Shown here in pieces: positions 1 to 29,834 of a stretch of DNA of 30,232 nt. Under the pieces are notes generated by a model. The model searched no databases. It saw nothing but the letters and a program-made list of their open reading frames with translations, and was not told the DNA's origin. Every line of letters starts with the position of its first letter. The stretch's first letter is position 1. Source of the stretch: a virus. The translations under genes were made by a program, and so were the position numbers. The stretch covers positions 1-30,232 of IMG/VR virus record IMGVR_UViG_3300036851_000799. The stretch is one strand, 5' to 3'.

Positions 1-198
1 AAAGAGCCCGATACCACCGAGAACGGCGGAGCACCTAACGTGCTCGACGTCATCGACGCGTTCGCGCTCGACTTCAACCTCGGCAACGCGATCCGCTTTG
101 TGCTTGAGAAGGACGACGGCGACGCGCTGCAGAATTTGCGCGAGGCTCACATCTACCTCGAACGCGCGATCGCTCGCCTGGAGGCTAGTAGCAGGTGA
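1..198 (+). CDS. DUF3310-like phage protein, C-terminal fragment
   Basis: The reading frame is open from base 1 and ends at TGA 196-198, giving the last 65 residues of a protein whose start lies outside the window. The segment VIDAFALDFNLGNAIRFVL, followed by GDALQNLREAHIYLERAI, matches the pattern of the small DUF3310 family found in many phage early regions. Members typically read as a Val-Ile-Asp helix, a Gly-Asn pair, and a terminal helix with a Tyr-Leu-Glu-Arg motif. The biochemical role of the family is not established. The word CCTAAC at 34-39 encodes a Pro-Asn pair here. A GGAGG at 180-184 near the end can serve the next gene. The family call rests on motif memory and is fairly firm; the function is unknown. 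Confidence 0.72.
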   Translation, partial: KEPDTTENGGAPNVLDVIDAFALDFNLGNAIRFVLEKDDGDALQNLREAHIYLERAIARLEASSR

Positions 199-886
199 CC
201 CCTAAGGCCTACGCAGGCCATCGTCATGGCCACCTCTCACCGGCGGACGCCATGACGATGCAACCAATCGAGACGCGCTATGCGGGTTACCGATTTCGCT
301 CCAGGCTTGAGGCGAGATGGGCCGTATTCCTGGACGCCATGCGGTGGCCATGGACTTACGAGGCGGAGGGTTTGAGCTCGGCAGCGCCGGCCGCTACCTG
401 CCGGATTTCCGGATCAATGGGCAGGCGTTCCTCGAGGCCAAGCCGACACCTAACGCGGTATACGAAGAGGATCGCGAGCGGTACTTCGCTCTCTACCACT
501 ACACTGGCGACCCGGTGTGGTTGGTGATCGGAACGCCTGGCGAACACACAATCGTGGTGACCGGCCTTCCCGACATATCCGGATCCCAGGGCCAATGGGC
601 TGAATGCCGTTGGTGCGGCGCACCGGCAGTCCTCGCGTTGGCGGACCATACGGTCTGGTCGACGGCGTGCGCACTCGAGTGTCAGACGAGCGAGATCGAA
701 TACCTGCTCCACGAATTGCGCGTCGCGGGCGGCTTCGTGGACGGAGATCCTCTTGTCAAACTCGCCGAGCGGCTTCGTTCGGCCACACTCACCCCGATCG
801 TACCGGCTGCCAGGATCGACGCGGCGATTTCCGCCGCGCGCGGAGCCCGCTTCGAATTCGGCGAATCCGGCGCGGGAGGCGGCTGA
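195..886 (+). CDS. PD-(D/E)XK-like phage nuclease, split by a -1 frame change near 368-374
   Basis: Two overlapping frames make one protein. The first runs from GTG 195 (GTGA overlap with the previous stop, GGAGG at 180-184; ATG 252 or 258 are alternatives) to about base 374. The second covers about 374-886, one base back. Joined at the heptamer G_GGT_TTG they give about 230 residues. Glu39 in RSRLEARW, Asp71 in YLPDF and Glu81-x-Lys83 in LEAKP fit a PD-(D/E)XK active site. Beyond this, Cys-x-x-Cys in CRWCGAP and two later cysteines suggest a zinc site. Without the shift, the first frame continues as low-complexity Ser/Arg sequence and stops at 527, and the second frame lacks Glu39. Either recoding, a real inactivating deletion of one base, or a sequencing error could explain this. 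Nuclease function is inferred from the residue pattern. Confidence 0.62.
368..374 (+). promoter_or_regulatory. Candidate -1 slippery heptamer in the nuclease gene
   Basis: The bases GGGTTTG read G_GGT_TTG in the upstream frame, which is the X_XXY_YYZ pattern for tandem -1 slippage. After the slip, reading continues at base 374 with GAG CTC, the frame that carries LPDF and EAK. A purine-rich stretch, GAGGCGGAGGG (360-370), lies directly at the site and resembles Shine-Dalgarno stimulators. The same bases would also be explained by loss of one G from a run of four, which would restore the more family-like Glu-Gly-Phe-Glu. Confidence 0.4.
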
Positions 887-1962
887 TGGCCCGGATCCGT
901 TACGTCAAGCCAGAGTTCTGGTCGGACGAAAAGATGGCTCCGATGCGCCCACTGGAGCGGCTCGTGTTTCTCGGGCTGATCTGTATGGCGGATGACAAGG
1001 GCCGCCTCGTCGACAACTGGAAGACGATTGACGGGCTGTTGTTTCCGGAGACGGACGATTCCGCGCGAGAGTCTCTTGAGGTCCTCGCGAATGCGGGGCG
1101 GATCATTCGCTACACCTCGGCGAGCGGACAGAAGCTCATTCAGCTCGCCAACTGGAAACGTCACCAGAAGGTCAGCAACCCCTCTAAGTACAACCTGCCC
1201 GCGCCGTTAGGCGAGATTGACGAGGACGTATCGGACGACGCTCCGGACGATCGCACGAGCCTCAACGGAGAGTCTCATGCAAGCCTCTCGCGATCCTCCG
1301 GAGACTCTCGGTTACCGATCATCGATCATCGACCATCGACCATCGACCATCGGTCATCGAAAAGCGCGGGGGCCGCGCCCCCGCACCCCCAGTCGCCTTT
1401 GGCGGTCGCGGGACCGATTCGCGAACTGCTCGATCGCTGCTACCCCGCGACCGACACCCAGCGCCGCCGGCAAGTCGAACGGCAAATGCGCGCGACGTTG
1501 ACGTCGAAGGGCTGCCGTCTCGAGGGCAGCGAGTACGTGCGCGCATACGATCAGACACAGCTGCAGGACGCCTGCGCATACGTCCTGAAACTCCGCCTCC
1601 GGGAACCCGACGCCGCCATTCGTCTCGTCCTGCTTCGCCTGCGCGACACGTATCTCGAGTGGCGATCGAGCGCCGAGAAGGGCGACCCGCTCGCGGCCGA
1701 CGTAAAAGCAGGAACCGGCGCCGTGCCAGCGCCCCTCGCTTACGCGCAGCAGCTCGAATGCGCGCGCGAATGGGCGGCTGAACGGCCCGAACTCGCGGCG
1801 GAGATCGAGCAACTGGCAACCGAGCGCCTCGGCGATCGCGCCACGAACGGCCGCGAGCTGCAGCGCTCGATCGACGACGAGACGATCGCGCGGTGGCGCG
1901 ACGCCGGATTCCCGATTCATGCGGCAGCCCATGGGGCGGCCGATCCTGGAGGCACCTCATGA
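886..1962 (+). CDS. Phage replisome-organiser-like replication protein
   Basis: 358 residues from ATG 886, which overlaps the preceding stop as TGATG. The first ~107 residues (KPEFWSDEKMAPMRPLERL, then GLICMADDKGRLVDN and NWKRHQKVSNPSK) follow the pattern of the winged-helix N-terminus of phage replication-initiation proteins. These bind origin DNA and load the helicase loader. A hydrophilic linker (about residues 108-175) is encoded partly by six 7-bp repeats, and a basic helical C-terminal region (about 176-358) follows. No helicase or primase motif is visible. Position after DNA-metabolism genes and before VRR-NUC fits a replication role. A start at 604 in the same frame would add sequence overlapping the nuclease in another frame and is unlikely. 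Function is inferred from domain pattern and context. Confidence 0.6.
   Translation: MARIRYVKPEFWSDEKMAPMRPLERLVFLGLICMADDKGRLVDNWKTIDGLLFPETDDSARESLEVLANAGRIIRYTSASGQKLIQLANWKRHQKVSNPSKYNLPAPLGEIDEDVSDDAPDDRTSLNGESHASLSRSSGDSRLPIIDHRPSTIDHRSSKSAGAAPPHPQSPLAVAGPIRELLDRCYPATDTQRRRQVERQMRATLTSKGCRLEGSEYVRAYDQTQLQDACAYVLKLRLREPDAAIRLVLLRLRDTYLEWRSSAEKGDPLAADVKAGTGAVPAPLAYAQQLECAREWAAERPELAAEIEQLATERLGDRATNGRELQRSIDDETIARWRDAGFPIHAAAHGAADPGGTS
1316..1357 (+). repeat. Heptanucleotide tandem repeat, six units, inside the replication gene
   Basis: Six 7-bp units run head to tail: CGATCAT twice, CGACCAT three times, and CGGTCAT once. They encode a repeating Ile-Asp-His-Arg-Pro-Ser-Thr type stretch in the linker of the replication protein. 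Because 7 is not a multiple of 3, gain or loss of one or two units would shift the frame and remove the C-terminal half; only changes of three units keep it. Confidence 0.85.
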
Positions 1963-2504
1963 CTGCAACGACCGTCACCATTGCCGGCAACGACTGCACG
2001 CTCGACGGGGCGATCGAAGACGTCACCATCGAGCGCGTGCTCGAGCTCACGGTCAACAGCGCGATCGTCGGCGCGTCGCACGATCAGCTCGTCGGCACCA
2101 TCGCCGCGCTGCGCATGATCCTTGTGCAGCTCCTGGCGCCCCACCCGCCTAACGCACTCAAGCGGCCGCTGATCACGTGCCCGTCGTGCAACGGCGCGAA
2201 GACGGTCGCGTTCGAGCGCGGGCCCTGCGAGGCCTGCGCCGGATCCGGTGAAGTCGAAGCGCCACCGTCGCCGACATCCCGCGCGCTGGCGACGCGGGTG
2301 CTGCACGCCGTCGTGCATCACCGGGTCGCGGTCCAAGACCGAATCAAGTACCTGGTCGAATGGAAGCTCGCGACGCCCGAGCGCGAGAGCGAGACGATCA
2401 ACGGCCAGCGAAGAGCTGAAGCGCGGCTGATCAAAGCGATTCGCGATTGCGCACGTCCGGAGCTCGAGGACCTGCTGCGCACCGAGCTGGAGTCGCTGCT
2501 GTGA
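1959..2504 (+). CDS. Phage protein with a DnaJ-like four-cysteine zinc motif
   Basis: 181 residues from ATG 1959, coupled to the previous stop as ATGA with GGAGG at 1949-1953. A central pair of Cys-x-x-Cys knuckles (CPSCNGAK and, about 16 residues later, CEACAGSG) resembles the CxxCxGxG zinc repeats of DnaJ-type proteins and is likely to bind one zinc ion. The N-terminal half is a helical segment with Val-Leu-Glu-Leu-Thr and a Leu-rich helix. The C-terminal half is a charged helix rich in Arg and Glu. No catalytic motif is seen. It sits between the replication protein and three small coupled ORFs, so a role in early DNA metabolism or host interaction is possible, but the specific function is unknown. 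Confidence 0.6.
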   Translation: MTATTVTIAGNDCTLDGAIEDVTIERVLELTVNSAIVGASHDQLVGTIAALRMILVQLLAPHPPNALKRPLITCPSCNGAKTVAFERGPCEACAGSGEVEAPPSPTSRALATRVLHAVVHHRVAVQDRIKYLVEWKLATPERESETINGQRRAEARLIKAIRDCARPELEDLLRTELESLL

Positions 2505-4493: not shown

Positions 4494-4558
4494 GTCCCAT
4501 CGCGTTTCCACATTCCCACACGGAGGTCACCATTGCCAGCCTAACGCAGGAGGTCGAC
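4494..4558. other. Gap between early run and accessory region
   Basis: 65 bp without an obvious gene. It holds two Shine-Dalgarno-like runs (GGAGGT 4522-4527 and AGGAGGT 4548-4554) and one copy of the GCCTAAC word (4539-4545). An in-frame ATT at 4532 follows the first run and could extend the next gene by nine codons, but ATG 4559 after the second is more likely. Confidence 0.5.
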
Positions 4559-6052: not shown

Positions 6053-6510
6053 GCGCTTCGTGTTCTCGGCCGGGCCCTAGTTCCTTGTCGATCGATTCAA
6101 CCTTCACCGGGTTCTTTCTGCGCGATGGTCGTCGCGGTGGCTTCTGCTGGGATGAGAAGCCGCGGTGCGTCAACGTGTTTGGTGGCGAACCGCATCGCCT
6201 GAAGACGAAGGGCCCAGTGATCGCCGATCTCATCACGCGTTGCGAGCACCGGCCGGCGTCGAAGCAAGGCGAGTGCGGCGCGCGTCTGTACGTCGCGCTC
6301 CTCACGTTCGGCGGCAGTGCAAAGGCACAAGGCCGCGGCGAGCGGCTCTGGCTCGTCGTCGAGGTCACCGCGCCGCAGATCCAGCGCATCAGCACCGAGC
6401 CGATGATCCTCCTCGAGAAGCTTTCGCTCCTCAACTGCGTGCTGCCTGGCGTGGCGTCCGATGTGTTAGGCGGCGTCGACGAGATCGCGGCCGGAGGCCT
6501 GGGCACCTAG
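6049..6510 (+). CDS. Hypothetical phage protein, 5' end uncertain
   Basis: An open frame with host-like codon use from about 6110 to TAG 6508-6510. The only starts near its 5' end are TTG 6049 (TTGA overlap with the cargo gene stop) and TTG 6085; no ATG lies before residue ~120. Sequence features include [16 protein letters not shown], two later Cys in [17 protein letters not shown], and a hydrophobic WLVVEV segment. A GTTAGGC word at 6465 encodes Leu-Gly. No family is recognised. The weak start and junction position suggest that insertion of the upstream cargo may have removed the original N-terminus. Confidence 0.45.
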
Positions 6511-6737: not shown

Positions 6738-7302
6738 ACCGGCCGCGGTCCCCGGGGTGCATCTCGTCGTTCACCCGACATACGTCCCGGATAGTTTCCA
6801 GGGCAAGCTCGAGCCTAACGACTTCTGTCGCGCGTGGAATTCAAAGCGGCTGAAGTACTGCCGGTCGCGCGCCGGCTGGGGCACGACGCACGTTGGTTCC
6901 GGACGGTGCCGAATCCACGACGGCGGCGGTGACGACCGCGTCAAGCACGGGCTGCATCGCCGCTATCAGTTCAAGACGCAGAAGCGGACGGCGGGACTCG
7001 AGCACCAGTCGGCCGACCCGACACCGCTCGATCTTTCGGCCGAGCTCGCGCTCGCGCGCACGCTGCTGCAGGAGTGGCTCGAGAAGAAAGACACGGATCC
7101 GGCGGACGGCATGAAGCTCGTCTCGGAAGTCACGCGCATCGTCGAGCGCATCGAAGGGATCAACGCGAAGAACTACATCACGTACGCCCAGCTCAAGCGG
7201 TTCCTGTTCATGGCGCGCCAGGGCATCGAGCTGCTCGTGCCTGACGAGGAGTTGCGGAAGAAGATCTTCGAGTACTTCGTCGGGCTCCGTGTCCCCTACT
7301 AA
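6730..7302 (+). CDS. terS: Putative terminase small subunit
   Basis: 190 residues from ATG 6730, directly upstream of the large subunit with a 14-bp overlap. An N-terminal zinc-type module (CRAWNSKRLKYCRSRAGWG, then GRCRIHDGG and a short basic His-Gly-Leu-His-Arg-Arg-Tyr) is typical of a group of small subunits that read CxxxxGxGTxHxGxGRCxxHGG. It is followed by a long helical region (about residues 95-175) suited to oligomerisation. Small subunits recognise the packaging site and regulate the motor. The call depends on the cysteine-rich opening and position. A small HTH is not obvious. Confidence 0.65.
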   Translation: MNEPAAVPGVHLVVHPTYVPDSFQGKLEPNDFCRAWNSKRLKYCRSRAGWGTTHVGSGRCRIHDGGGDDRVKHGLHRRYQFKTQKRTAGLEHQSADPTPLDLSAELALARTLLQEWLEKKDTDPADGMKLVSEVTRIVERIEGINAKNYITYAQLKRFLFMARQGIELLVPDEELRKKIFEYFVGLRVPY

Positions 7303-8989
7303 GCCGGCGTCGTTCGAGTGGTCGTACGATGGCGGTGTGCTCGATGCGCCGCTGCTCGCGCCGAGCGACCCCTGGGCCCAAGCGCTCGCCGAAGTCTTCG
7401 GTGACACGTCGCCGGCACTCGACCCGATCGATCTCGAGAACGGAGTACTCGAGCCCGCGCCACGCATGCCGCTGCGCCAGTTCGTCGAGCAGGCATGGCC
7501 GATCCTCGAGCCCGAGTCGATGTTCATTCCGAACTGGCACATCGACGTCATCTGCGCGCACCTCGAGGCGGTGATCGACGGCCGGATCCGGCGGCTCGTG
7601 ATCAACATTCCCCCAGGCTTCATGAAGTCGTTGCTCGTCTGCGTCTTCTGGCCGGCGTGGGTGTGGACGTTCCGACCTGGGTGGCGCGGGATCTTCTCGA
7701 GCTACGCCGGCGATCTCGCGATTCGGGACTCCGTGAAGTGCCGCACGTTGATCGAGAGCGAGTGGTATCGCGGCACGTTCGCGCCGACGTGGCAGCTGTC
7801 GAGCGATCAGAACGTGAAGAGCTACTTCCAGAATACGCGCATGGGGTTCCGGCTCTCGCTCTCCGTCGGCGGCAAGGGCACCGGGTTCCGTGGCCACTGC
7901 GTCATCGTCGACGATCCGCTCAACGTGCGCGACGGCTTCAGCGATCCCGCGCTCGACGAGGCAGTGCGTTGGTGGGACAAGACCATGTCGACGCGCCAGA
8001 GCGACCCGCGCGTGGGCGCGCGCATCATCGTGATGCAGCGGCTGCACGAGAAGGATCTGAGCGGCCACGTGCTTCGTCGTGGCGGCTACGAGCATCTTTG
8101 CATCCCGATGGAGTTCGAGTCGAAGCGACGCGGGGCGACGGTGATCGGCTGGCAGGATCCACGTGTGGAGGAAGGTGAGCTCGCATTCCCCGAGCTGTTC
8201 CCCGCCGACGTCGTCGAGGAGCTGAAGACCGATCTCGGCTCTGATGGCGCGGCCGGCCAGCTGCAGCAGCGACCGACCGCGGCCGAAGGCGGCATCTTCA
8301 AACGCACCTGGTGGAAGTGGTACTCGCAGATTCCGCCGGTCTTCTACGAGCTCGCGTTCTCGCTCGACTGCAGTTTCAAAGACACCGACGGCACCGACTA
8401 CGTTTGCGGTGGCGTGTGGGGTCGGATCCAGGCCGATCTCTACCTGCTCGACTTCCTGCGCGCACGCCTCGATTTCGTGTCGACGCTGGCGTTCCTGCGC
8501 GAGATCCACAAGAAGTGGCCTAACGTCTTCGCCAAGTTCGTCGAAGATAAGGCGAATGGCACAGCCGTCATCAACACGCTCAAGCGTGAGATCCCGGGGC
8601 TGATCGCGATCGAGCCGGACGGCGGCAAGGTGGTGCGTGCTCGAGCGGCCTCACCGATCGTCGAGGCGGGCAATGTGTGGCTCCCGGATCCGGCGCACGC
8701 GGCGCGCATCGCGCGCGAGTGGCTGACGATCGCCGAGCGCCCCGGCTCGTGGCTGCCGGCGAAGTACGTCCGCGGCAAGCCGACGCATAACGACTACCTC
8801 GGCGCGATGGTCGAGTGGACGAGCGAGTACGTCGAGGAGCACGCGGTGTTCGACGCCGGCGTCTTCGATGACCAGGTCGACATGACGACGCAGGTGATCA
8901 ACCGGCTGTACAAGAAGCAAGGGACGAAGAAGGCCGAGCGTCCGACGTCGCGGAGCTCGGCGGCGAGTGCGATAGCGGAGATGGGGTAG
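7289..8989 (+). CDS. terL: Terminase large subunit (packaging ATPase-nuclease)
   Basis: 566 residues from GTG 7289, with no in-frame ATG before residue ~60. The ATPase domain has the Walker A variant NIPPGFMKS (106-114), Walker B VIVDDP (205-210, Asp208/Asp209), and an Arg-rich coupling region with VMQRLHEKD (~248-256). The RNase H-like nuclease domain shows Asp360 in FSLDCSF, VEDKANG (418-424), and the terminal VFDDQVDM acidic cluster (525-532). It powers DNA translocation into the prohead through the portal and cuts the concatemer. Length and domain order are normal for the family. Its stop lies 5 bp from the end of the convergent protease gene. One CCTAAC word (8518-8524) encodes Pro-Asn. 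High confidence. Confidence 0.95.
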   Translation: MSPTKPASFEWSYDGGVLDAPLLAPSDPWAQALAEVFGDTSPALDPIDLENGVLEPAPRMPLRQFVEQAWPILEPESMFIPNWHIDVICAHLEAVIDGRIRRLVINIPPGFMKSLLVCVFWPAWVWTFRPGWRGIFSSYAGDLAIRDSVKCRTLIESEWYRGTFAPTWQLSSDQNVKSYFQNTRMGFRLSLSVGGKGTGFRGHCVIVDDPLNVRDGFSDPALDEAVRWWDKTMSTRQSDPRVGARIIVMQRLHEKDLSGHVLRRGGYEHLCIPMEFESKRRGATVIGWQDPRVEEGELAFPELFPADVVEELKTDLGSDGAAGQLQQRPTAAEGGIFKRTWWKWYSQIPPVFYELAFSLDCSFKDTDGTDYVCGGVWGRIQADLYLLDFLRARLDFVSTLAFLREIHKKWPNVFAKFVEDKANGTAVINTLKREIPGLIAIEPDGGKVVRARAASPIVEAGNVWLPDPAHAARIAREWLTIAERPGSWLPAKYVRGKPTHNDYLGAMVEWTSEYVEEHAVFDAGVFDDQVDMTTQVINRLYKKQGTKKAERPTSRSSAASAIAEMG

Positions 8990-8994: not shown

Positions 8995-9972
8995 TTAGAA
9001 CGCGGGCGTGGGGTTTTTGTCTAGCCCTTCTTGCAGCACCCGATCGAGCTCTCGCAGTTCGGACGCTTTGATCACGAGCCCGAGGTTGTTGGGAATTTTG
9101 CTGAACGCGCGAACCCCTTGTGCCGTTGGAATCGTGACGATCTTAACCTCGCCCTCGGCAGTGTGAGATGGTCCCGCATACATCACACCGAGCAGCTTCG
9201 CGGTAGGCTTCCCGATCTGCATGAGCGTTCGGGAAGCGTAGGCGCCTTGGTTAAACAGCAGCACCGGAGAGCCGCTTGACCCCGGAAAGCACGCTGCGTC
9301 GATCAAGAATTCTCGCTTCCCGTCATAGTCGTGATAGGGATGGGTCGCAGCGACCCCCTTTCGGAAGATCGGCATGTTGTTCGCGGAATCCCAGATGCCG
9401 TTTGGGTAGCCAACCATGACGACATCGTCGAGCGCCGTCAGTGCGGCAAGCTCAATCTCTGTCGCGATGTCGTTCAGGCTGAAATGGACGTAATAGACGC
9501 GACCACCCCTTCCGGCGATAATCCCGAACGTCTGAGCCAACGGCAGGGCACATAGATCTACGTCCGGATCCGGGTGCTGTACCCACCTCGCTTCAAAATC
9601 ATCGAGAACAACCCACACAGACTTGCCAGATGGCTCGATAGAGTCGTCGGGAGCCGCGGGATTTGCCGCGAGGTGCAGATACAGACGTCCGGTCGCTGCG
9701 TCTTCAACCACATGCTTGTTCGTGACGATGGCGGGGACGTGAAGTGGCAGATCGCGAGTCGCAAACGCGAAAAAGAATCCGGTTCCCGTCGATGTGTCGC
9801 CATTTTTCAGTGTGCATTCAATTCGGACGGTCGCGTAACCGAGCTGCTCAACGGCGGTGAAGGACTTGGGCATTTGGACGGAAGTTAGGGTTCCGAGGGC
9901 GACGGCGGAGATCTGGCTGCACGCGAGCGAACTGTCGAGACTTGCGCGATCGCCGGGCTGGGCATTAGTCAT
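8995..9972 (-). CDS. Trypsin-like serine protease, inserted cargo gene
   Basis: 325 residues if started at the minus-strand ATG ending at 9972; ATG at 9873 (Met34, MPKSFTAVEQ) is a good alternative that removes a non-domain leader. The catalytic triad is clear: His87 in IVTNKHVVED, Asp139 in HPDPDVDLCAL, and Ser233 in CFPGSSGSPV. No signal peptide or membrane helix is convincing, so it likely acts in the cytoplasm. It is the only minus-strand gene, lies convergent to terL and divergent from the portal, and has lower G+C. Proteases of this class occur as stand-alone genes on mobile elements and as effector domains in some defence systems. A morphogenetic role is less likely since a gpI-type prohead protease is present. 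Role inferred. Confidence 0.78.
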   Translation of the reverse strand: MTNAQPGDRASLDSSLACSQISAVALGTLTSVQMPKSFTAVEQLGYATVRIECTLKNGDTSTGTGFFFAFATRDLPLHVPAIVTNKHVVEDAATGRLYLHLAANPAAPDDSIEPSGKSVWVVLDDFEARWVQHPDPDVDLCALPLAQTFGIIAGRGGRVYYVHFSLNDIATEIELAALTALDDVVMVGYPNGIWDSANNMPIFRKGVAATHPYHDYDGKREFLIDAACFPGSSGSPVLLFNQGAYASRTLMQIGKPTAKLLGVMYAGPSHTAEGEVKIVTIPTAQGVRAFSKIPNNLGLVIKASELRELDRVLQEGLDKNPTPAF

Positions 9973-10264: not shown

Positions 10265-12358
10265 ATGCGGGTGTACACGCGCATGCGACGCGGTGATGGC
10301 GCGGTCAACACGTCGCTGCTCGCGATCGAGAAGCCGATTCTCGGCGCGCGCTGGGACGTCGCCGGCGATGACGACCTCGCGCAGGCCTGCCGCGATGAGC
10401 TCTTCTCGAGCGATCGCGCGCAGCCATGGGATCCACCGATCCTCGAGCAAGCCGTCGAGCATCTGCTCGGGATGTTTCAATACGGCTTCGCCGCGTGTGA
10501 GCCCATCTGGGAGATCGGCGACGACGGCAACGTCCATTGCACGCGGATCACCCGGATCCGGCAGGAGAGCGTCCGCACGATTCGCCTCGACACGCGCGAG
10601 CAGCCCGAGGTCCTGATTCAATACACGAATCAGCTCGATGGCGGATGGCGTGAGATCGAGGTGCCCATAAACCAGCTGATGCTGGCGGTGCACGCACGCG
10701 AGGGCGCGGACTATACCGGCGTCGCGCTCATCCGGAGCTCGTACCGGGCGTTCCTCGAGCGTGACACGATTCGCAAGACGCGGCTCTGGCACCACGATCG
10801 ATTCGGCGCTGGAACACCGACAGCCGAGTACCCGGAGAACGCCGGGGACGACGCGAAGCGCGACGTCGATGAAGCGCTCGAGAACTGGCGAAGTGGCACG
10901 AAGACGTTCATCGCAGTGCCGTTCGGGACAAAGCTCGACGTCAAGGGCGGGCAGTCGATGACGGGGACCGGCCCGGTCGAGGAGCTCGCGTCGCTGGCCG
11001 CGGAGATCGCAAAGAACACGCTCTCGCAGCTCACCGAGTTCGGAACGTCCGGCAACACGGGTAACCGTTCGTTAGGCACTTCCTTCGCCGAGCTGCTCCG
11101 CCAAGCGCTGCAGGGCTATGCCGAGCGGGTTGCGCAGATCATCCGACGCAAGCTGCTGATGCCGTTCGTGCGGTGGAACTTCGGCGAGACCGTCGACGTG
11201 CCGGAGCTCACCGTGCGCGTGTCGCTCGCCGGCGTGACCGAGCTGCTCAGCGCGATCACCATGGCAACGGCTGCCGGTCTCACGCTCGAACCGGAAGACA
11301 TTGCGGCAATCCGCGACGAGCTGGAGCTCCCGGAGATCGAGCTCGAGGAACTCACGAGGCGCATCGAGCAGCGTCGCCTCGACGCCCAGAAGACGAAGAC
11401 GGCGATCGATGCGAAGACGGATCCCAAAACCGATCCGAAGTCTGATCCGACGAAGGAGCCGAAACAGCTCGACGATCCTCCGCCGGCGCCGATGCTCGCG
11501 CCCGATTACCTCGGTCGCTTCCGCCCGGCGAAGATCGTCGGTCTCGAGGAAAAGTTCGTGAAGCCGCGGCTGCTCGGTGATCAGCTCGATCGAGAAGCGA
11601 CGCGCGCGACGGCCGACGTGCACGACGTGCTCCGCGACATCGATCGCGATCTCGCCGCCCAGGTGCGCGGGTTCGCCGAGCAGGGCGCCGACGTGCTTAC
11701 CGCGAAGGTTGCCAAGCTCGCGGTACCGAACGCGCTCCGGATCCGGCTGCGTCGCGCGATGGATACCGCGGCCGAGCGCGCGCGCAATGTCGGCGCCGAG
11801 AGCGTCCGCGAGGAGCTGCAGCGTCAGGGCCTCGAGCGCGCGGCCGAGAAGACACTCGCCGAGCGACTGCGTCGCCTCTTCGCCGATCGCGAATTCTTCG
11901 GCGGGTTCCGTCGCATGATGCGCTCGATGCTCGATCTCTTCGTCGATCGAGAAATCACCGCGCGCGAACAGGGTGCCCAGGACGCCGCACTCGCGGCCGT
12001 GACGGATGGCGCGCGCGCTTCGGTACCGGCGGACGCCGCCGCGATCGCTGCCCGGGTGAAGGCGATGCTCGAGGAGCGCTCGGTCTCCGCAGTCGAGAGT
12101 CGCGTGACGTCCGTGATCAACGTGTCGTTCGGGCAGGGTCGCTCGGAAACCGGCCAGCTCTTCGGCCAGGAGATCGACACGCAGATCCGGAGCGAAGTAC
12201 TCGACGGCAATACGTGCGACTGGTGCAGTGAGCACGACGGCGACGAGTTCGACTTCGGCGATCCGAACGCGCCCGAGCTCCCGGATCCGAACTGCGACGG
12301 CCAGTGGCGGTGCCGCGGCTTCTGGTTCTACCAACTCAAGACGCCGGCGGGCGCATGA
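10265..12358 (+). CDS. Mu-like portal protein (DUF935 type) with C-terminal MuF-like motif
   Basis: 697 residues from ATG 10265. The N-terminus (RVYTRMRRGDGAVNTSLLAI, ILGARWDV) is a DUF935-type portal opening; portal proteins form the dodecameric DNA entry ring. About residues 1-350 fit the portal. A low-complexity DPKTDPKSDP linker (~384-396) follows, then a helical region and a final CDWCSEHDG...CDGQWRCRG cluster (~651-685) typical of MuF head-morphogenesis proteins, normally a separate gene in Mu. The frame is open upstream to 10064 and reads family-like (RREVVGDEYVTALQDVGQRM), but no ATG, GTG or TTG occurs there; CTG 10148 would add 39 residues. The true start is therefore probably upstream. 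Portal call firm; fusion inferred from motifs. Confidence 0.85.
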   Translation: MRVYTRMRRGDGAVNTSLLAIEKPILGARWDVAGDDDLAQACRDELFSSDRAQPWDPPILEQAVEHLLGMFQYGFAACEPIWEIGDDGNVHCTRITRIRQESVRTIRLDTREQPEVLIQYTNQLDGGWREIEVPINQLMLAVHAREGADYTGVALIRSSYRAFLERDTIRKTRLWHHDRFGAGTPTAEYPENAGDDAKRDVDEALENWRSGTKTFIAVPFGTKLDVKGGQSMTGTGPVEELASLAAEIAKNTLSQLTEFGTSGNTGNRSLGTSFAELLRQALQGYAERVAQIIRRKLLMPFVRWNFGETVDVPELTVRVSLAGVTELLSAITMATAAGLTLEPEDIAAIRDELELPEIELEELTRRIEQRRLDAQKTKTAIDAKTDPKTDPKSDPTKEPKQLDDPPPAPMLAPDYLGRFRPAKIVGLEEKFVKPRLLGDQLDREATRATADVHDVLRDIDRDLAAQVRGFAEQGADVLTAKVAKLAVPNALRIRLRRAMDTAAERARNVGAESVREELQRQGLERAAEKTLAERLRRLFADREFFGGFRRMMRSMLDLFVDREITAREQGAQDAALAAVTDGARASVPADAAAIAARVKAMLEERSVSAVESRVTSVINVSFGQGRSETGQLFGQEIDTQIRSEVLDGNTCDWCSEHDGDEFDFGDPNAPELPDPNCDGQWRCRGFWFYQLKTPAGA

Positions 12359-12678
12359 TGCCGTTGGAAGTGTACACGTTGCGAATCTATTCGCGCGGCA
12401 GCGACGAATCCCCCGCGCCACGCAGCGAGCAGCCGCTCGTGCTCGAGCATTCCGTGCACGCGATCGAGGGCACCGCTGGCGAGTTGTTAGGCAACTACGC
12501 GGTCGACCCGAAGTCGCCAACCCTCGCCTGTATCGCGCACACGGGACACGCCGGCGGGATGGGTGGTGCGTTTTGGGCACCCGATGAACGTTCGGCCGCC
12601 GTGGTCGTTGGCGTAGAGCTCGAGCTGCCGGCGAAGCCGTTGCATGGGTTCCGCGTGGAATGGGAGCGTCACTCATGA
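12355..12678 (+). CDS. Hypothetical head-region protein, 107 aa
   Basis: ATG 12355 or 12358 in an ATGATG that overlaps the portal stop. The protein appears to be mainly beta: PLEVYTLRIYSRG at the start, a Leu-Leu-Gly-Asn encoded by the GTTAGGC word, and RSAAVVVGVELEL near the end. No domain is recognised. Position between portal and prohead protease suggests a minor head component. It ends in an ATGA junction with the protease gene. Confidence 0.55.
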   Translation: MMPLEVYTLRIYSRGSDESPAPRSEQPLVLEHSVHAIEGTAGELLGNYAVDPKSPTLACIAHTGHAGGMGGAFWAPDERSAAVVVGVELELPAKPLHGFRVEWERHS

Positions 12679-14242: not shown

Positions 14243-14295
14243 TCCGTCGGCTCACCCCTCTCACGCCTAACGGCACCTAACGGAGAACCGCGGCC
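14243..14295 (+). other. Leader of the major capsid gene with a doubled CCTAACGG word
   Basis: Two copies of CCTAACGG (14266-14273 and 14276-14283) lie 10 bp apart, just before GGAGA (14282-14286) and ATG 14296. The first is an exact GCCTAAC word and the second ACCTAAC. No gene is present. Confidence 0.55.
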
Positions 14296-16434: not shown

Positions 16435-17000
16435 TGGCGCTCTTCGCGCGCCTCCGGATCCGGATGGACGACGGCGCAGTGCGTGACTTCGCGACGCAGG
16501 CCCTCGCGAACATGGACGATCTCCGCCCAGCGCTTCGTGTGGTCGCCCAGAATCTCCGCGGCTTCATGAGGCGCGTGTTCAATACGGAGGGCAAGGTGTT
16601 GTTAGGCAAGGTGTGGGAGCCGTTGCGGCCCCGCACTGTCGCCGCCCGCACGGCGCGCACCGGACACTACCGCGAGCAGTCGAACGAGAAGCCCACGCGG
16701 CGCATCCTGCACTGGACGCAGGCGCTCCGGCGGTCCGTCATCGAACGCGACGCGGAAGGCCACGTCGAAGCCGTGACCGCGACGTCGCTCACGTTCGGCA
16801 CCGAGATCGCGTACGCGGCGCCAAATCAGAAGCGTCGCAAGTTCCTCGGCATGACGGACGACTTCGTGAAGACGGACGTCGTCGCGCCGATCGCGCAGTA
16901 TCTCGTCGGTCGGGATCCACGAACGGCGGCCGGCCAGCGTCGCACGCGGCGAATCGGCAGCACCAGCGGTCCGGTTCGACTCGACGAGGCCGCCGACTGA
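16434..17000 (+). CDS. Mu gpG-like tail completion/virion morphogenesis protein
   Basis: 188 residues from ATG 16434 (TGATG overlap). LRPALRVVAQNLRGFMRRVF, a Glu-Gly plus Trp-Glu-Pro-Leu-Arg motif, TLRRSV-like ILHWTQALRRSVI and FGTEIAYAAPNQ (ending in an Asn-Gln before a basic run) follow the phage virion morphogenesis family (Pfam Phage_tail_S, Mu gpG). It acts in tail completion and head-tail joining. The final basic and Pro-Gly tail is longer than needed and likely disordered. Good confidence in family; exact step inferred. Confidence 0.72.
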   Translation: MALFARLRIRMDDGAVRDFATQALANMDDLRPALRVVAQNLRGFMRRVFNTEGKVLLGKVWEPLRPRTVAARTARTGHYREQSNEKPTRRILHWTQALRRSVIERDAEGHVEAVTATSLTFGTEIAYAAPNQKRRKFLGMTDDFVKTDVVAPIAQYLVGRDPRTAAGQRRTRRIGSTSGPVRLDEAAD

Positions 17001-17521
17001 TGATCGCGAACGTGCTCGACGAGATCGCCGCCAGCGCGGTCGCGCAGCTCCCGGGAATGATCACCGAGGTGGCCACCCTCCGCAATGTCGTGCTCGACGC
17101 GACGATCAATGTCGTCGACTGGTGGAAGACGGACGCCGAGTTCCTGACCGTGCAGTTCCCCGCCCTCTTCCTCACGTGGGACGGAACGACCACCCGCGTT
17201 AGGAGTCCGCTCGGCCGACAGGCGAATCACCGGATTGGACTCGGGTACGCGGTGCGCCTCGCGAACAGCGTCGACATCAAACGGCACCTGACGTACGTGC
17301 CGGAAGCAATCCTTGCCTGGCTCGACGACTTCCCGATCACGAGCCGCGGCGCCGGCAAGACGATCATTGCGGTCGCGCCGAAGGAAGACATTGAAATCCA
17401 GGTCGATGCCACGCGACTGAAAGACGGCTCGCTCATCTGGGGCGTCGACCTCGGCCCGATCACGGTGACCGCGTCCGACGTCGCCGCACAGCTCCCCACG
17501 CGTCCGATCACCCATCCCTAA
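17000..17521 (+). CDS. Tail terminator-like protein, 173 aa
   Basis: ATG 17000 shares its A with the preceding TGA. A beta-alpha-beta mix (FPALFLTWDGTTTRV, IGLGYAVRLANSVDIKR, LTYVPEAILAWLDDF, IIAVAPKEDIEIQVDATRL) and its place between the completion protein and the tube protein fit a tail terminator that caps the tube and meets the head. The stop codon TAA lies inside a CCCTAACG word (17516-17522). No direct family motif is recognised, so the role is contextual. Confidence 0.55.
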   Translation: MIANVLDEIAASAVAQLPGMITEVATLRNVVLDATINVVDWWKTDAEFLTVQFPALFLTWDGTTTRVRSPLGRQANHRIGLGYAVRLANSVDIKRHLTYVPEAILAWLDDFPITSRGAGKTIIAVAPKEDIEIQVDATRLKDGSLIWGVDLGPITVTASDVAAQLPTRPITHP

Positions 17522-17545
17522 CGCCACTCCCCGGAGAGTCTGCAC

Positions 17546-19076: not shown

Positions 19077-22000
19077 ATGGCTGAACGCGTCACCATCTCG
19101 ATCAGCGGCGTCGATGCGGGCGGGAAAGCCCTCATCCGCGACGTCGTCAAAGAGCTGAACGCTGCGACGACGGCCGAAGGCAAGGCGGCCGCCGGCGCCG
19201 ATCAGCTCGCGACCGCGGGCAGCCGCGCCGCGCGAGATCTTGGCTCAATGCAGGCAACGTTAGGCCGGCTGGTGGCGTTGTTGGGTGCCGCGTCGATTCT
19301 CCGCTTCACGAAGGAAGCGATCGACCAGGCAGACGCCATGCGAGATCTCTCGCAGAAGACCGGCGTCAACGTCGCCCAGCTCAGCGTCCTCGATCTCGCG
19401 GCCAAGCGCGCCGGCTCGTCGACGGAAGGCCTTACTGGCGGGCTGCGCTTCCTCTCCAAGTCGCTCACGGATGTCCGCGCTGGTGGCGCCGACGCAGTGC
19501 AGGCGTTCCGCGCGATCGGGCTCTCGGCACGCGACTTCGACGGGCTCTCGCTCGATCAGTCGGTGAAGAAGATCGCCGACGCGTTCGATGGTTATGCGGA
19601 CGGCGCAGGCAAGTCTGCGATCGCGCAGAAGATCTTCGGCCGATCGGGGAGTGAGCTGATTCCCTTGCTCCACGATCTCGCCGGCGACGGCCTGGCGAAG
19701 GTCACCGCGGAGGCTGAGAAGCTCGGCGCGGTGATGTCGCAGGACGACGTCGACGCGGCCGACGCCTTCAACGATGCGCTGGGCGATGCGAAGCTCGCAG
19801 CGTTAGGCTTCGCGCGCGAGTTCGCGACGTCGATTCTGCCGCCGATCACCGACTTCCTGCGCCTGTCGGCGGAGCTCGCGGCCAGCGTGCCAACGGAGTT
19901 GAAGGTCTTCATCGGCGTGCTGTTGCTCACGACCGCCGGCGCGCTGGGCACCGCGGCAGCGATCGGCACGTTGAACCTCGCCGTGACAGCACTCGCCGCG
20001 AATCCAGTGGTCGCCGCGATCGCGGTGATTGGTGCACTGGTCGGAGGCCTCGCCGCGCTCGCCGCAGCAAAGCGCGTCCAGGAAGAGCAGGAACGACGAG
20101 AGCTCGAGGCCCGCGCGGCGAACATCCTTCGCACGCACCAGCTGATCAACGAATTGGGCGCCGAGCGACGCGCGATCGAGAGTGGCGCAATCTCCGGCAA
20201 GAAGCTCGAGGATGCCAAGCGTCGACTCAAGACAATCACGGAAGAGCTGATCAAGGTCAGTCCTGAGTTTCGCGCGGCGCTGGAGAAGGAGGGCATTTCC
20301 GCCGATAACGCGGTCACCGCGCTCACACGCCTCAACGAGGAGCGCGTAAAGCAACTCGAGTTCGAGGAGCTGGTCACCGCGGTCGAGATCTCGAGTACGC
20401 GCAAAGCGCTGAACGAGGCGCAGGAGAAGCTTCAGACCGCGGCGGGGCGGAACATCGACTTCCTGAATTCGAAGGTCGCGCTACTCACGACCCAGCTCGA
20501 GCGCGCCACCCAGCGCCAGGGTGAATTGAACGCGGCGATCGCGCGCGCAAAGGGGCTTGAGGCACCGACCGCGCCGACGGAAAAGCCGAAGCCGGACATC
20601 GTGCTCCCGGATCCGGCACTGCTGGCGGCACGGTTGACCGCGGAGAAATCGGCACTCGAGAACGAACGCGCCCTATTCGCCGAGCACCAAAAGCTCGAGG
20701 AGCAACGCAATGAGCAGGGGTTCGCGCGCGGGCTCGCGGGGCTCAGCGCCTATTTCGCCAAGCGCAAGGCGATCCTCACCGAGAACATCGACAACGAATT
20801 CCTCGCGCTGCTCAAGCAAAAGAAGATTCTCGCCGATGCGCCCGTGGCCACGCAGGCGGAGGCGGAAGCCAAGAAGACGGCCCTCGGCGAAATCGACGCG
20901 AAGATCGCGCAGCAACGCGTCCGCGAGCAGCAGCAGCTGGAAGCGCTGACCGAGGATGAACGGCAGAAACGCCTTCAGCTCGCACAGCAGATCCTCTCAT
21001 TCGAAGCCACGATCCTGCAGGCGCGTGGGCGCACGCACGACGCGACGATCGCGCAGATCGACGACCAGGTCAAACGCTACGAGCTCGCACTCCGGCAGCA
21101 GGGGACGCTGAGCGAAGAGGCCGTACAGCGGCTCCTCGAGAACGCGCGCCAGGCCCTCACGCCGCGCGCCGATTTCGAACGGGTGCAGCAGGACGCCGAG
21201 CGTGTGTTCAGCGAGATCGACATCGCGCGCCAGCGTATCGACAACAAGGTCCGCGCTGGGTTGATCTCGCAGCTCGATGGCGAGAGGGCGGTTGCGGCCG
21301 CCGAGCGTGAACGAATTCCGGCGCTGCAAGCGATCGCGGACCGAATGCGCGCCGTCGCGCAAGAGATCGGGGATCCTGCACTTCTCCAAGCGGCCGATGC
21401 CCTCAGCGTGCACATCGGATCGTTAGGCCTCGTCACCGACGAGGTCCGCCAGCGGTTCATCAATCTCGGCGCCGACATCCGGCGGTCCCTGCAGGCGGAC
21501 CTGTCGAACTTCCTGGGCTCGGCGATCAACGATGTCTTCAGCGACGCCGGCAAGCGGAGCGACTTGAAAGCGCTCGAGGAGCAGGCACGCCGCGCACGCC
21601 AGGAGCTCGCCGCGCTGGAGTCGGGCGATCTCTCACCGCAGGCCAAGGAGTCGGTCAAGGCGATCCGCACCGAGATCGAGCAGATGGACGAGCAGATCCG
21701 GAAATCCCGCGACGACACGGTGACCTGGGGCGATGCCTTCCTCGAGCTCGCGAAGAACGCCGTCGGAAGCGTCCAGCGCATTCTGGGCGAGCTCATCGCG
21801 GCCGAGATCATTCAACGCGCGCAGGGATTGTTCGGCCGGAAGGATGCGGCCGTAGAGACAGCCAGCGCGGCGACGGCGCTGAGCGCAGCGGGTGCCACCG
21901 TCAGCCTCGGTGCATCACGCACGCAAGGCGCTGCAGCGCAGCTCGGGGGTGCAGGCGCGATCGTCACTCGCTCGGCTGGCGCGATTGGCACGTCCGCCGG

Positions 22001-22574: not shown

Positions 22575-22583
22575 GCCCTAACG

Positions 22584-23714
22584 ATGCGGACCTTCGCGCT
22601 CGGCGCGGTCATGCTCGAGGAAACGTTCGAGGGCTACCGCGATCTCGCGGAACTGCTCGAGTACTGGACCGAAGTCGACCCGGCCAGCATTGCGGTGCTC
22701 TCGCTCGAGGACGACGGGTACGCGGCCGGCGGGCAGCGACGCCACCTCGTCATGACGGTCAACAACACGTCCGGTGCGTTAGGCACGGTGAAGCTGAGCT
22801 CTCAGGGGCGCGGTGTTGGCACGTGGGCGCCTAACACGGTGCTCACCCAGGTCGCGGCGGATCTCAGCGTGCGCTACAAGGCGGAGCCCGCGCTCGCCGG
22901 CTGCGCGCTCGGCGTGCGCGCGTCGACCAACTTCTTCGGCACGTCGATCTTCGCCGATCCGGCGATCTGTGACGGCGAGTGGCACACGGCGACGGGCACG
23001 TGGCTCATGCAGGACGACAGCGTCGGCGCCGATGGGTTCCACTTCATCGCGACGAACATTCCGATCGGCGCCGAGGGCGCGATCGCGTTCGACGACTACC
23101 GCATCATCCGGCGCGACAACGTCTGGCGGGTGATCGACAACACCTGCCCGGTTGCGTTCATGCGCGCGGACTGGGAGAACGGCATCCGCGAGCGGTTCAC
23201 GTATCCGACGCAGCTGCACACCGCGCGCGATGGATCCGAGTGGCGCGAGTCGCTGCGCATGATCCCGCAGTGGCGCCTCGACTACGTGACGAAGGCCGGG
23301 GACGCGGCCGAGTCGGCGCGCGTCGACGCCTGGCTCTGGCTGAACCAGGGCAAGCGCGTGGCGGTGCCGCGGTGGATCGATGCACTGCCGCTCGCGTCGA
23401 TTCAGTCGAGTGGCCACGAGATCTTCATGTCCGGCGACATCACCGATCGATGGTTCCAACGTCGGCAGCGCGCGCTGATCTGGGAGAGCCCGACGAAGTG
23501 GGAGGCCGTGCCGATCGACACGCTGAACGGAGGCGTGCCATCGCGCATCACCCTCGACCCGACTGAAGCGGCCGTCGTCGGGACATATCGCATCGGGCCG
23601 ACCCTCGTCGTCCCGCTCATGCCCGGGCGCCTGGCGCCGGATCTCCCGTTAGGCCGGCCGAGTAGTCACTACGCGGAGATCCCGCTCGCATTCACCCTCG
23701 AGATGGTGCAGTGA
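22584..23714 (+). CDS. Distal tail or minor tail protein, 376 aa
   Basis: ATG 22584 follows directly on a CCCTAACG word (22576-22582); GAGG at 22566-22569 is a distant ribosome site. The N-terminal third is a jelly-roll-like segment with FHFIATNIPIGAEGAIAFDD typical of a carbohydrate-binding or decoration fold; the remainder (VWRVIDNTCPVAFMRADWEN, then IPQWRLDYVTKAGD and FQRRQRALIWES) looks like a distal tail/Dit-type platform. Position right after the tape measure supports a tail-tip role. Domain reading is tentative. Confidence 0.62.
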   Translation: MRTFALGAVMLEETFEGYRDLAELLEYWTEVDPASIAVLSLEDDGYAAGGQRRHLVMTVNNTSGALGTVKLSSQGRGVGTWAPNTVLTQVAADLSVRYKAEPALAGCALGVRASTNFFGTSIFADPAICDGEWHTATGTWLMQDDSVGADGFHFIATNIPIGAEGAIAFDDYRIIRRDNVWRVIDNTCPVAFMRADWENGIRERFTYPTQLHTARDGSEWRESLRMIPQWRLDYVTKAGDAAESARVDAWLWLNQGKRVAVPRWIDALPLASIQSSGHEIFMSGDITDRWFQRRQRALIWESPTKWEAVPIDTLNGGVPSRITLDPTEAAVVGTYRIGPTLVVPLMPGRLAPDLPLGRPSSHYAEIPLAFTLEMVQ

Positions 23715-25203: not shown

Positions 25204-25211
25204 GGCGTTAG

Positions 25212-28200
25212 GTGGCCTTCATTGGGATCGTGATCGCGTGGATCGCCACCTACGTCGCGCAGCAACTGCTGCGCGCGGTCACGTTTCGGCCGGAGAATCA
25301 GAAGCCGGGCCATATCGAGCCGCCGGCACCGCAGGAAGGCGCGACGATTCCGGCCATCTTCGGAACGGTGAAGCTGGCGCCGAACATCGTTGCGTTGCCT
25401 GACGATCCGCCTCGAGAGGTCCCCGTCAAGAAGCGGATCCAGACCTCGATCTTCACGACGCGTAAGCAGACCGTCGCCCATAAGTACCTCGTCACAATGC
25501 AGGGCGTGCTGTGCTGGGGCCCGGTCGACGAGCTGGTCGACATCGTCCTCGCCGACAAGTACTCGATGGCCGGCGGCGCCGGCGTGGTGAACTACCGCGA
25601 GAACGTTGGGCCCGGCGACATCACGGTCGTCATCAATGCTGCCGGCATCGCGCCGTCCCTGCCGCAGGCGTACGCCGCCGGTGGCACGGCGCTCACGCTC
25701 GACGCGCCCTTCCTGTACGGCGGCCGCGATGGCGAGGGCGGCGTCACGGGGACGCTCCGGTTCTACTTCGGCAGCGCGACACAGAATGCGAACGCGTACC
25801 TGGTGACGAAGGTCGCGGATCCCTTCCCCGCCTATCGCGGCCTCTGCTACGCGGTATGGGAACATGTTAACTGCGGGCAGAACCCGTATCTCAAGAACTG
25901 GCACTTCGTCCTCCGCCGCTGCCCGACGACGTTAGGCACGCTCGCCGGCGACGTCACCCTGTCGCGGATCGGCAACGACGCGAACCCGGCCGAGGTGCTG
26001 TACGAGCTGTGGACCGACGCGCGATGGGGCATGGGGCGTCGCGCGAGCGAGCTCGATATCCCGAGCTTCATCGCGGCGCTCGAGACGCTGGCCGACGAAG
26101 AGCTCGGGATCAGCGGGTCGCACGGCGAGAGCGGACAGGCCGACGCGAAAGCCGCCGAGATTCGCCGGCACATCGATGCCACGTTCGGCCCGGATCCGGC
26201 GACGGGGCTGATGCGCCTCAAGCTTATCCGCGATGACTACGACGTCGCGACCCTGCCCGTGTTCAACACGTCGAACACCTCGCGGGTGAACGTCGCACGG
26301 CCGCCGCTCGGGGAGAAGACGACGCAGGTGAAGGTGAACTACACCGACGCCGGCGCGGGCTTCACCACGCGCACGCGGCAGGCGCACAACCCGGCAGTCG
26401 AACGCGCGCAGGGCTACGCGATCGGCGCGGTCGCGAACTACCCGCTGCTTACGACGGGCGCGAACGCCGAGCGTGTAGCGGCGCGCGACTGCCGGACGGT
26501 CTCGGCAACGCTCGCCGCGGGCTCGATCGTCGCTACGCGCGCGGCCGCACGGCTGGCGCCCGGGGAACCATTCATCATCGATTTCCCGGACGACGGGTTC
26601 CCGATGGTCGTGGTGCGTGCGACGCGATCGAAATACGGCTCGATTCATAGCACGGAAGACGTCGAGATCCAGCTGACCGAGGACGTCTTCGCCTCGAGCG
26701 GGGGCGTGTTTGTCACCACGCCGCCCGACGTGTGGGAACCGCCACCGCCGACCGCGTTCCCGAACCTGGTCGTCACACCGGTCCTCACGCTGGACGCAAC
26801 GCAAGGCTGCGTGAAGCTCGTGATCGAAGGGCGCGTCGAGTCGATCGTGAGCATCGAGATGACGCGACAGAAAGGCGGCGAGGCGGCCGAGGCGCCGGTC
26901 GCCTTCGACGCCGACGATCCACCGCAGCTCTGCGTCGATCGCGACGATATCGAGACTGGGCGTATCGCGTGGGTGGTTACCTTCACCCAGGCCGACGGAA
27001 CGGAGGACACTGAGGAAGGCGAGGAAGCAATCCCACCGTTAGGCGCGGATGACGGGAACGCCGACGGGACGCCGGGCAACTGGTCGCACGCGTTCATCAC
27101 TGAGTACGGCGGGACGGCGGTGCTCGGTGCGCACGGAACGGCCGCCGAAGATCTGCCGTGCGGCCTGTACCGCCGGTTCCTCAAGCCCGGCTCATTCCTA
27201 CGTGGCCAGGCGACCGTCGTGGTCGCCGGCGCCATCACGGCGTTTCTCGATCTGAAGGTGTCGCTCGACGGCGGCGACACGTGGGAGACCGACTCGGTCG
27301 GCATTCGCGTCCCGCTCCGCGACGTGAAGCACGCGGTCGGCTTTGCGATCGAAGTGCCCGAAGATTTCGAGGGCGACGTGTTACTGAAGGCTGTCGTCGA
27401 GGGCGGCAACGACGTCGCGGTGCCCGAGCTCCTGAACTTCATCATCGAGTCCACGTCGGCCGAGCCACCGCCAGCAGATGGCGAAGATGAGCCGGTGACA
27501 CCAGGCGTTCCGACGGATGGCCTCGTCGCCTACTGGGCACTCACCGAAGGCAGCGGATCGTCGGTTGCGTCGAAAGACCCGGCGCCATCGGGCCCGTCGC
27601 TCACGCTTGGGTTCACGACGGGCACCGAGTCGGACGCTCGCTTCGACCCGTCGTGGCAGACGGGACCGCGGCGTTTGCGACCGGCTGGGTTCGACCTTGT
27701 GTATTCAGCATTCAGCCATCTGGCAAATATCCCGTCGTACGCCGCTGGCTCCGCATGCTTTATGTACGTTGATGTCACCACGTTTGGAGGACTGGCGAAA
27801 TTCTTTATGGGCATTGGGAACTCGCCATTCACGTATCGAATGGGGGTCGACGGATCGAATAAACTGTTCGCGCAGATTTCCGAAGATTCAGGCGGAGATC
27901 CCGTACGTACGGCGACAGGGACGACGACAATATCGAACGGGTCGAAGCATCTCGTCGGATTCATTCACGACGGCACGAACCTAAACGTCTACGTCGACCC
28001 CGAGGACGGGCTTCCCGAAGGGACTGTGGCCTGTGCGACGGCGAAGTTCGACGCGACGACGGATCTCATCATTGGCGGTGGCGCGTACCCCCCCGGCGCT
28101 GGCCAGCCCGACAACTTCGATCACGGCGACGTGGTGTACGCGTCCGGTGCTGGGGTCGCGAGCTGGACGCCCGATGACATCGCGGGTCTGTTCGCGTGGT

Positions 28201-28229: not shown

Positions 28230-28369
28230 GAGGTCATGTGCTGACGGTGCCGCCTAACGTGCCGACCGGCCAGAGGATGCTCATCGGGTGGGTCCACGAC
28301 GGCAAGACGATACGGGTGTACGTCAACGGGCGGCTCATAGAGACACACACCGCAGAGGCGACTGAATGA
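28226..28369 (+). CDS. 47-aa ORF resembling a LamG strand pair
   Basis: ATG 28226 in an ATGA overlap, ending at TGA 28367-28369. The core MLIGWVHDGKTIRVYVNGRL repeats the pattern of the LamG segment HLVGFIHDGTNLNVYVDPE of the preceding protein. It could be the remnant of a second LamG-like domain, split off by a stop, or a small accessory. Coding signs are host-like and a CCTAACG word encodes Pro-Asn. No separate function is known. Confidence 0.5.
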   Translation: MRGHVLTVPPNVPTGQRMLIGWVHDGKTIRVYVNGRLIETHTAEATE

Positions 28370-29310: not shown

Positions 29311-29339
29311 TGACAACTCGAGTTCCACCGTTCTCACAC

Positions 29340-29373
29340 ACGGCCCTTCGCTCTCCGGAGCGCGGGGCTGTTT
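29340..29373 (+). terminator. Rho-independent terminator between tail and lysis genes
   Basis: ACGGCCC (29340-29346) pairs with GGGCTGT (29365-29371), with an inner perfect stem CGCTC/GAGCG (29349-29353 with 29358-29362) and a TCCG loop. TTTC follows. It lies in the 136-bp gap 29273-29408, which has no gene, and would end the tail transcript before the lysis genes. It is closely similar to the hairpin at 10097. Confidence 0.65.
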
Positions 29374-29408
29374 CACATCCCCTCGCAACACCCGCTGGCA
29401 GGAGACCC

Positions 29409-29834
29409 GTGGAGGATCACGAGGAACAGGAACGCCGACACACGCAGCCGGGACGGCGGACCGCCGACGCGGTCGCGTTCCGCGAATCGGCCACCTACGA
29501 GGCGGTCATCGACGAAGTCGCCGATGTCGCCAAGGTACTCAAGACGGTCGGCATCAGCTGGAAGCGCTGGGTGGTGTTCGCCGGCGTCTTCGGCGCCATG
29601 GGCGGGGCGGTGATCGGTGCGGTGAACTGGTTAGGCGGTCGATACCAGTCGCCCTACGAGGTCCGGCAAGAGACGGCCGCTCGCATCGCGTCGATCGAGG
29701 ACCGCGTGGGGAACGTCGAGGAAGCGATGGATCTCATGTCCTACCTGCTCTGCGTCCAAATCCGCCGCACGGATCCGGCGGCCGTGCCACCCAAGTGCAA
29801 CGAATCCTCGATCCGGAGGCTCGCTCCCAAATGA
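29409..29834 (+). CDS. Membrane protein, lysis-region (possible holin or spanin)
   Basis: GTG 29409 is preceded by AGGAG at 29400-29404. 141 residues: a charged N-terminus (~50 aa), one clear membrane helix at about residues 56-76 (WVVFAGVFGAMGGAVIGAVN), and a charged C-terminal helix with a heptad-like ARIASIEDRVGNVEEAMDLM. A single-span protein with a coiled coil near the lysis position fits a holin accessory or inner-membrane spanin-like protein. Final role unproven. It overlaps the next ATG as ATGA. Confidence 0.55.
   Translation: MEDHEEQERRHTQPGRRTADAVAFRESATYEAVIDEVADVAKVLKTVGISWKRWVVFAGVFGAMGGAVIGAVNWLGGRYQSPYEVRQETAARIASIEDRVGNVEEAMDLMSYLLCVQIRRTDPAAVPPKCNESSIRRLAPK

Follow-up and report, generated by a model that had tools for sequence, protein, structure and literature searches.

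Why would a tailed phage write the same seven bases into its genome more than twenty times? The question is raised by a viral contig (IMG/VR record IMGVR_UViG_3300036851_000799, positions 1 to 30,232), which we call the window, meaning the whole 30.2-kb stretch that was analysed. The window has 65.5% G+C and carries nearly all of its genes on the + strand, and its Rep-type initiator, large terminase, portal, head protease, major head protein, tape measure and tail genes identify it as a tailed phage. A first-pass annotation, made from the letters of the window, had noted that GTTAGGC is iterated and had reasoned that, if shared with the host, it would mark the phage as adapted to a host system for recombination, segregation, uptake or methylation. 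We place GTTAGGC, as a new lineage-specific iterated word, in the broad group that includes the uptake signal sequences (USS) of Pasteurellaceae and DNA uptake sequences (DUS) of Neisseriaceae, the Chi sites of RecBCD and AddAB, and the highly iterated palindrome HIP1 of cyanobacteria.

Over-use of GTTAGGC in the window

On recount, GTTAGGC occurs 22 times (15 copies on the + strand and 7 on the - strand, approximately one per 1.4 kb) and the core GTTAGG 31 times (19 and 12, respectively), both totals being exactly as first annotated. The word is not a palindrome, as had also been claimed, and ranks first or second among all 7-mers of the window. Expected word counts vary with the order of the Markov model, the check that the annotation had proposed: with both strands summed, 1.03 copies are expected at order 1, 0.95 at order 2 and 2.69 at order 3, while the maximal order (order 5) gives 20.7. 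This last value is circular and does not refute the enrichment, because the inner 5- and 6-mers exist almost solely within the word (nearly all of the 33 TTAGG and 34 GTTAG belong to its copies). The over-use of GTTAGGC in the window is therefore real and far above chance. The actual unit is a near-invariant GTTAGG, preceded by C in 25 and followed by C in 22 of the 31 copies, and no flanking motif beyond (C)GTTAGG(C) was found among the window copies. As a group, the one-mismatch neighbours of GTTAGGC are neither enriched nor depleted, with the exception of position 7, and the neighbours of the uptake signal in Haemophilus phage HP1 behave similarly.

Synonymous codons and stop codons accommodate the word, equally for its two orientations, which reveals selection at the DNA level. 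Genes of the phages and of the bacterial genome G249 (see below) were called with a simple codon-usage caller; in the window, 19-20 of the 22 copies lie within genes, in positions that leave the encoded amino acids unchanged. Sense copies are read as G-TTA-GGC in 14 cases and as GTT-AGG-C in one, and all antisense copies (4-5) are read as G-CCT-AAC, so that the frames described earlier predominate with a single exception. The word does hold most TTA codons of the window, the share being 14 of 22-23 on recount and not about 15 of roughly 20. TTA-GGC fills 14 of the 51 sites (27%) at which a codon able to end in G precedes Leu-Gly, against 0.4 expected from codon use, and CCT-AAC fills 4 of the 13 Pro-Asn sites (31%), against 0.35 expected. 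No such excess is seen for control codon pairs in the window (TTG-GGC, CTA-GGC, CCC-AAC, and TTA-GGC preceded by a codon with a final base other than G), and a synonymous-codon shuffle of its genes yields a mean of 0.83 words (maximum 4 in 200 shuffles) against the 19 observed. In another phage, G005, 15 of the 20 TAA stop codons lie inside GCC-TAA-C, which is another placement without cost.

Two further claims of the first-pass annotation were upheld in part. Its count of at least six copies in the gaps between genes is borne out for the core, of which 7 of 31 copies lie in or touch gaps (at 34, 4540, 14266, 14276, 17517, 22577 and 25207) against approximately 2 expected at 6.6% intergenic DNA, but not for the full word (2-3 of 22, not above expectation). 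The bias toward the + strand stands as a raw count of 15:7; as a sign of Chi or of FtsK-orienting polar sequences (KOPS) it fails, because genes on the + strand offer more sense than antisense synonymous sites and both kinds are filled, at 27% and 31%. The 22 copies are also spaced more evenly than chance (coefficient of variation 0.51 versus 0.94, P=0.0015), and the same test on the 17 uptake signals of HP1 returns 0.51 (P=0.002).

Other phages and one Acidobacteriota family

Scanning IMG/VR for two nearby copies of the word yielded further word-rich contigs. GTTAGGC is the top 7-mer in G004 (55 copies versus 2.4 expected), G005 (49 versus 1.6, with all 49 GTTAGG being GTTAGGC), G329 (33 versus 1.1) and G330 (19 versus 1.2), and it is iterated more weakly in G332 and G333. 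Word density is 728/Mb in the window and 728-1,205/Mb in the phages overall, and enrichment in the five strongest phages is approximately 15-30-fold. Gene similarities among all of these contigs, and between them and the window, are few and weak. Inheritance of the word together with the terminase was rejected, as none of 34 terminase relatives from viral contigs, the closest of them at 54% identity, shows the enrichment.

Several other viral contigs were set aside. G016 has GTTAGG near its composition control and an unrelated tetranucleotide profile, and in L124, L132, L133 and L156 the core sits in longer tandem or dispersed repeats and not in isolated words. L132 (2886-3140) and L133 (1554-1760) carry clusters of CGTTAGGAC/CGTTAGGAGCGTTAGG repeats, spaced by 6-9 bases, that flank a short region on both sides; they resemble an origin- or operator-type array and differ in this from the words that stand singly. 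L156, a contig of 7,653 bases, has a dispersed 28-base unit, CCAGTACCCCCCGTTAGGCGTAGGGGTA, that includes the word and occurs in single and tandem copies. L266 belongs to a viral contig of 44.6 kb with 50% G+C; GTTAGGC is iterated there along with GTTAGTT/TGTTAGT, confined to the initial 10 kb, and may represent a kindred family of words belonging to a different host. G332 (loci L418-L420) has an extended form, TCGTTAGGCT, with CTAACGA/TCGTTAG at 27 versus 2.6, and this form is possibly a dialect of the GTTAGGC word.

The bacterial survey covered Acidobacteriota only, in some 400 fragmented genomes, of which 297 were drawn across the phylum. Among these 297, G249 was an outlier with 790+796 copies of GTTAGGC against 303+315 for the reversed word, while in nearly all others GTTAGGC lies far below this control. 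Across the 18 species of the G249 family, counts are 1,586, 789, 642, 610 and 577, then one weak 181, with the remainder at 27-253; no comparable iteration was found in the rest of its class (149 genomes searched in all). The word is clearly iterated in five of the 18 species of this one family and more weakly in a sixth, and in no other Acidobacteriota surveyed. In the 605 kb of G249 that were examined, GTTAGGC is the top 7-mer (205 versus 16; a 13-fold enrichment, at the lower end of 'tens-fold'), and its genes hold 169 words against 12.8 after codon shuffling, which indicates synonymous placement here as well. The copies in G249 are only slightly even in their spacing; in phage G329 even spacing is found as in the window. 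The word-rich species form three separate lineages on AddB and ComEC trees, which implies repeated gain or loss of the trait.

The tetranucleotide profile of the window, with the tetramers of the word excluded, correlates most strongly with exactly the five genomes that are rich in the word (0.65-0.70); correlations are lower for word-poor members of the family (0.41-0.63) and lowest for Terriglobia (0.27-0.42). On this composition we infer that the window, G004, G005 and G329 are phages of the G249 family or a near relative, and G332 probably is as well. The earlier expectation that the word would be shared with a plausible host lineage agrees with these results, as the G249 family is rich in the word and unrelated phages carry it too. 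Terriglobia, the source of the only genome matches of the terminase, were rejected as hosts because the reversed control is 8-10 times as frequent in them as the word and the composition fit is poor.

Candidate readers of the word

The strand-bias check on the candidate host gave a negative result. The contigs of G249 show no replichore polarity of GTTAGGC (chi-square 18.0 on 23 degrees of freedom, where a 75:25 bias would give approximately 68 by our estimate), and 103 of 201 copies (51%; a hand tally from per-contig counts) agree with the GC skew of their contig. KOPS are asymmetric and iterated as GTTAGGC is, but replichore polarity is their defining feature, and they are excluded. With them falls the segregation part of the initial proposal, and uptake-like and Chi-like uses remain. 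The strand polarity of the window was likewise discarded as evidence for Chi or KOPS, since codon availability explains it and the candidate host lacks it.

We tentatively favour the view that (C)GTTAGG(C) is a lineage-specific recognition word of the uptake type, used by one Acidobacteriota family in its chromosomes and more densely in its phages. The G249 family or a close relative would be the host, and a DNA-handling machine of this host would read the word in either orientation and treat DNA bearing a word every kilobase or so as self. The candidate machine is DNA uptake with a sequence bias, as in the USS and DUS systems, and a bias in uptake and recombination could spread the word through the host and its resident phages. 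Uptake-signal-like use appears to fit best, with Chi-like use next, because polarity is absent and the strength and density are on the order of those of uptake signals in Pasteurellaceae phages, which reach approximately 750/Mb at saturation (PMC6776037). Like USS and DUS, including those of HP1, GTTAGGC is short, non-palindromic, enriched tens-fold and used alike in both orientations; it occurs approximately once per kilobase and mostly in genes, with even spacing in the window and G329, is common to the probable host and phages, and shows slight flank differences between lineages. It differs in belonging to another phylum and having another sequence, in being denser in phages than in hosts and in its patchiness within one family. 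ComEC is present in 16 of the 18 genomes of the family.

Several observations weigh against this reading. Word-poor species also carry ComEC, whose presence was rejected as an explanation since it is near universal in the family. The phages (728-1,205/Mb) are denser than the densest bacterial genome found (approximately 360/Mb), whereas an uptake drive should leave phages lagging behind their host. Copies are not evenly spaced in G004 and G005, nor in G332 and G333. Uptake words accumulate chiefly in temperate phages (PMC6776037), and a tyrosine integrase was detected in only one scanned phage, probably G004. Moreover, the hosts were assigned by composition only, in a survey confined to Acidobacteriota.

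It is somewhat less likely, though still a serious possibility, that the word acts as Chi does. Host AddAB would read single-stranded GTTAGGC and switch from degradation to recombination, and phages without a recombinase and a nuclease inhibitor would carry the word to survive and recombine. The window proteins scanned gave no recombinase or Gam-like match, and AddAB-type nuclease domains (PDDEXK_1) occur in all 18 family genomes, with AddA- and AddB-like long open reading frames adjacent. GTTAGGC is, like Chi, a non-palindromic word of seven to eight bases that is over-represented in the host and in phages lacking a recombinase. Chi is usually biased to the leading strand, and the candidate host shows no such polarity, which counts against a classical Chi. 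That the phages exceed the host is also what recombinase-less lambdoid phages do, in which Chi is over-represented above the host core genome (PMC3784561). The observed/expected ratio of Chi is 2-3 in E. coli and lambdoids (PMC3784561), and that of GTTAGGC is approximately ten times the E. coli value. Furthermore, word-poor species have AddAB equally, and no alignment column of AddB separates word-rich from word-poor species.

Two further observations concern AddAB. In the word-rich clade of G249 and G319, AddA, AddB, ComEC and (in G319) RecA are approximately 1.6-1.9 times as divergent as usual; AddAB divergence was rejected as the cause of the word, since it does not exceed that of ComEC and RecA and the clade is thus a fast one. 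A second, distant type of AddAB (L453, L457, L459, L462) stands beside the common type in G316 and G061 and is the sole type found in G320 and G323.

A third and rather unlikely explanation is another genome-wide word read in the cell, be it methylation-linked, as suspected for HIP1, or the site of a nucleoid or repair protein. The sharp six-base core with tolerance at position 7 only, the sporadic occurrence within one family and the DNA methylase-like protein encoded by the word-rich phage G004 are in keeping with it. HIP1 is likewise the top iterated word of its lineage and lies mainly in genes; however, it is a palindrome linked to methyltransferases, whereas GTTAGGC is asymmetric and dense in phages. 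A reader of the restriction type would make phages avoid the word, and no reader protein was found.

Chance, composition, codon bias or mutational bias, to which only the maximal-order expectation lends colour, is very improbable and in its chance form already refuted, given the circularity of that value and the outcome of the codon shuffle; a mutational bias would require a process specific for seven bases, and the neighbours are unshifted as a group while the word itself occurs in gaps as well as in several reading contexts. Least probable of all is a phage-specific operator, that is, repeated repressor or regulator sites like the asymmetric stoperators of mycobacteriophages, which the seven core copies in or touching gaps and the 15 TAA stops of G005 might suggest: stoperators are longer, specific to a phage group, bound by a repressor and mostly in short gaps, whereas GTTAGGC has no extended flanking motif, lies mostly in genes and is common to chromosomes and to phages with almost no shared genes, so that its enrichment in G249 and relatives largely refutes this reading. 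GTTAGGC also fits the R' consensus of integron attC sites (GTTRRRY), a resemblance judged coincidental; there is no paired attC structure, the word is not confined to gaps and it is shared with chromosomes.

Copies in the window and meaning of the word

Sense copies of the full word, all on the + strand, are read as TTA-GGC at 1206-1212 (Rep-type gene), 6465-6471, 11071-11077 (portal gene), 12486-12492, 16134-16140, 16601-16607, 19259-19265, 19802-19808 and 21422-21428 (these three in the tape measure gene), 22778-22784, 23648-23654, 25931-25937 and 27038-27044 (both tail gene) and 29630-29636, and as GTT-AGG at 2944-2950. The - strand copies are antisense, as CCT-AAC, at 2147-2153, 6813-6819, 8518-8524 (large terminase gene) and 22829-22835; the others on this strand lie in gaps between called genes at 4539-4545 and 14265-14271 and between a tail gene and the next long gene at 28252-28258. 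The gap at 14265-14281, directly before the major head gene, holds two cores ten bases apart (GTTAGGTGCCGTTAGGC, minus strand), the second being a core followed by T at 14276-14281. Core-only copies are otherwise followed by T at 34-39 (-), 449-454 (-) and 12719-12724 (+), by G at 9884-9889 (+) and by A at 17198-17203 (+). Three more are the copy at 17517-17522 (-), which, read in reverse as CC-TAA-C, provides the TAA stop codon for the gene at 17000-17521, the copy at 22577-22582 (-) in the gap of 9 bases that follows the tape measure gene, and the copy at 25207-25212 (+), which lies in an 8-base gap and touches the start codon at 25212.

Other features of the window are recorded here. The palindrome CTCGAG is strongly over-represented (150 strand-summed versus 46-51 expected), as are CCGGATCCGG-type words (GGATCCGG, 33 versus 2.9). 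Between the terminase and portal genes of this + strand phage, a gene for a trypsin-like serine protease (PF13365, 2e-10; phrog_7688, 4e-66) occupies 8995-9972 of the minus strand; it is a possible late acquisition.

We found no prior report of GTTAGGC in this sense and no literature on an uptake-type word in Acidobacteria. Self-marking iterated DNA words are known in very few lineages. It is conceivable, although we hold this a little more loosely than the uptake reading itself, that an Acidobacteriota lineage evolved its own genome-wide self word. This would be the first such word of the USS/DUS type known beyond Pasteurellaceae and Neisseriaceae, and unrelated phages would independently have written it into their genomes to mimic the mark, reaching up to three times the density seen in the densest host genome found. 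A word found in uncultured bacteria, in a subset of one family and in at least five phages with nearly no genes in common offers a natural experiment on how such words are gained and lost. Counting GTTAGGC is an immediate tool for assigning orphan phages to hosts, and it becomes possible to test directly whether selection favours phages that carry the self word of their host.

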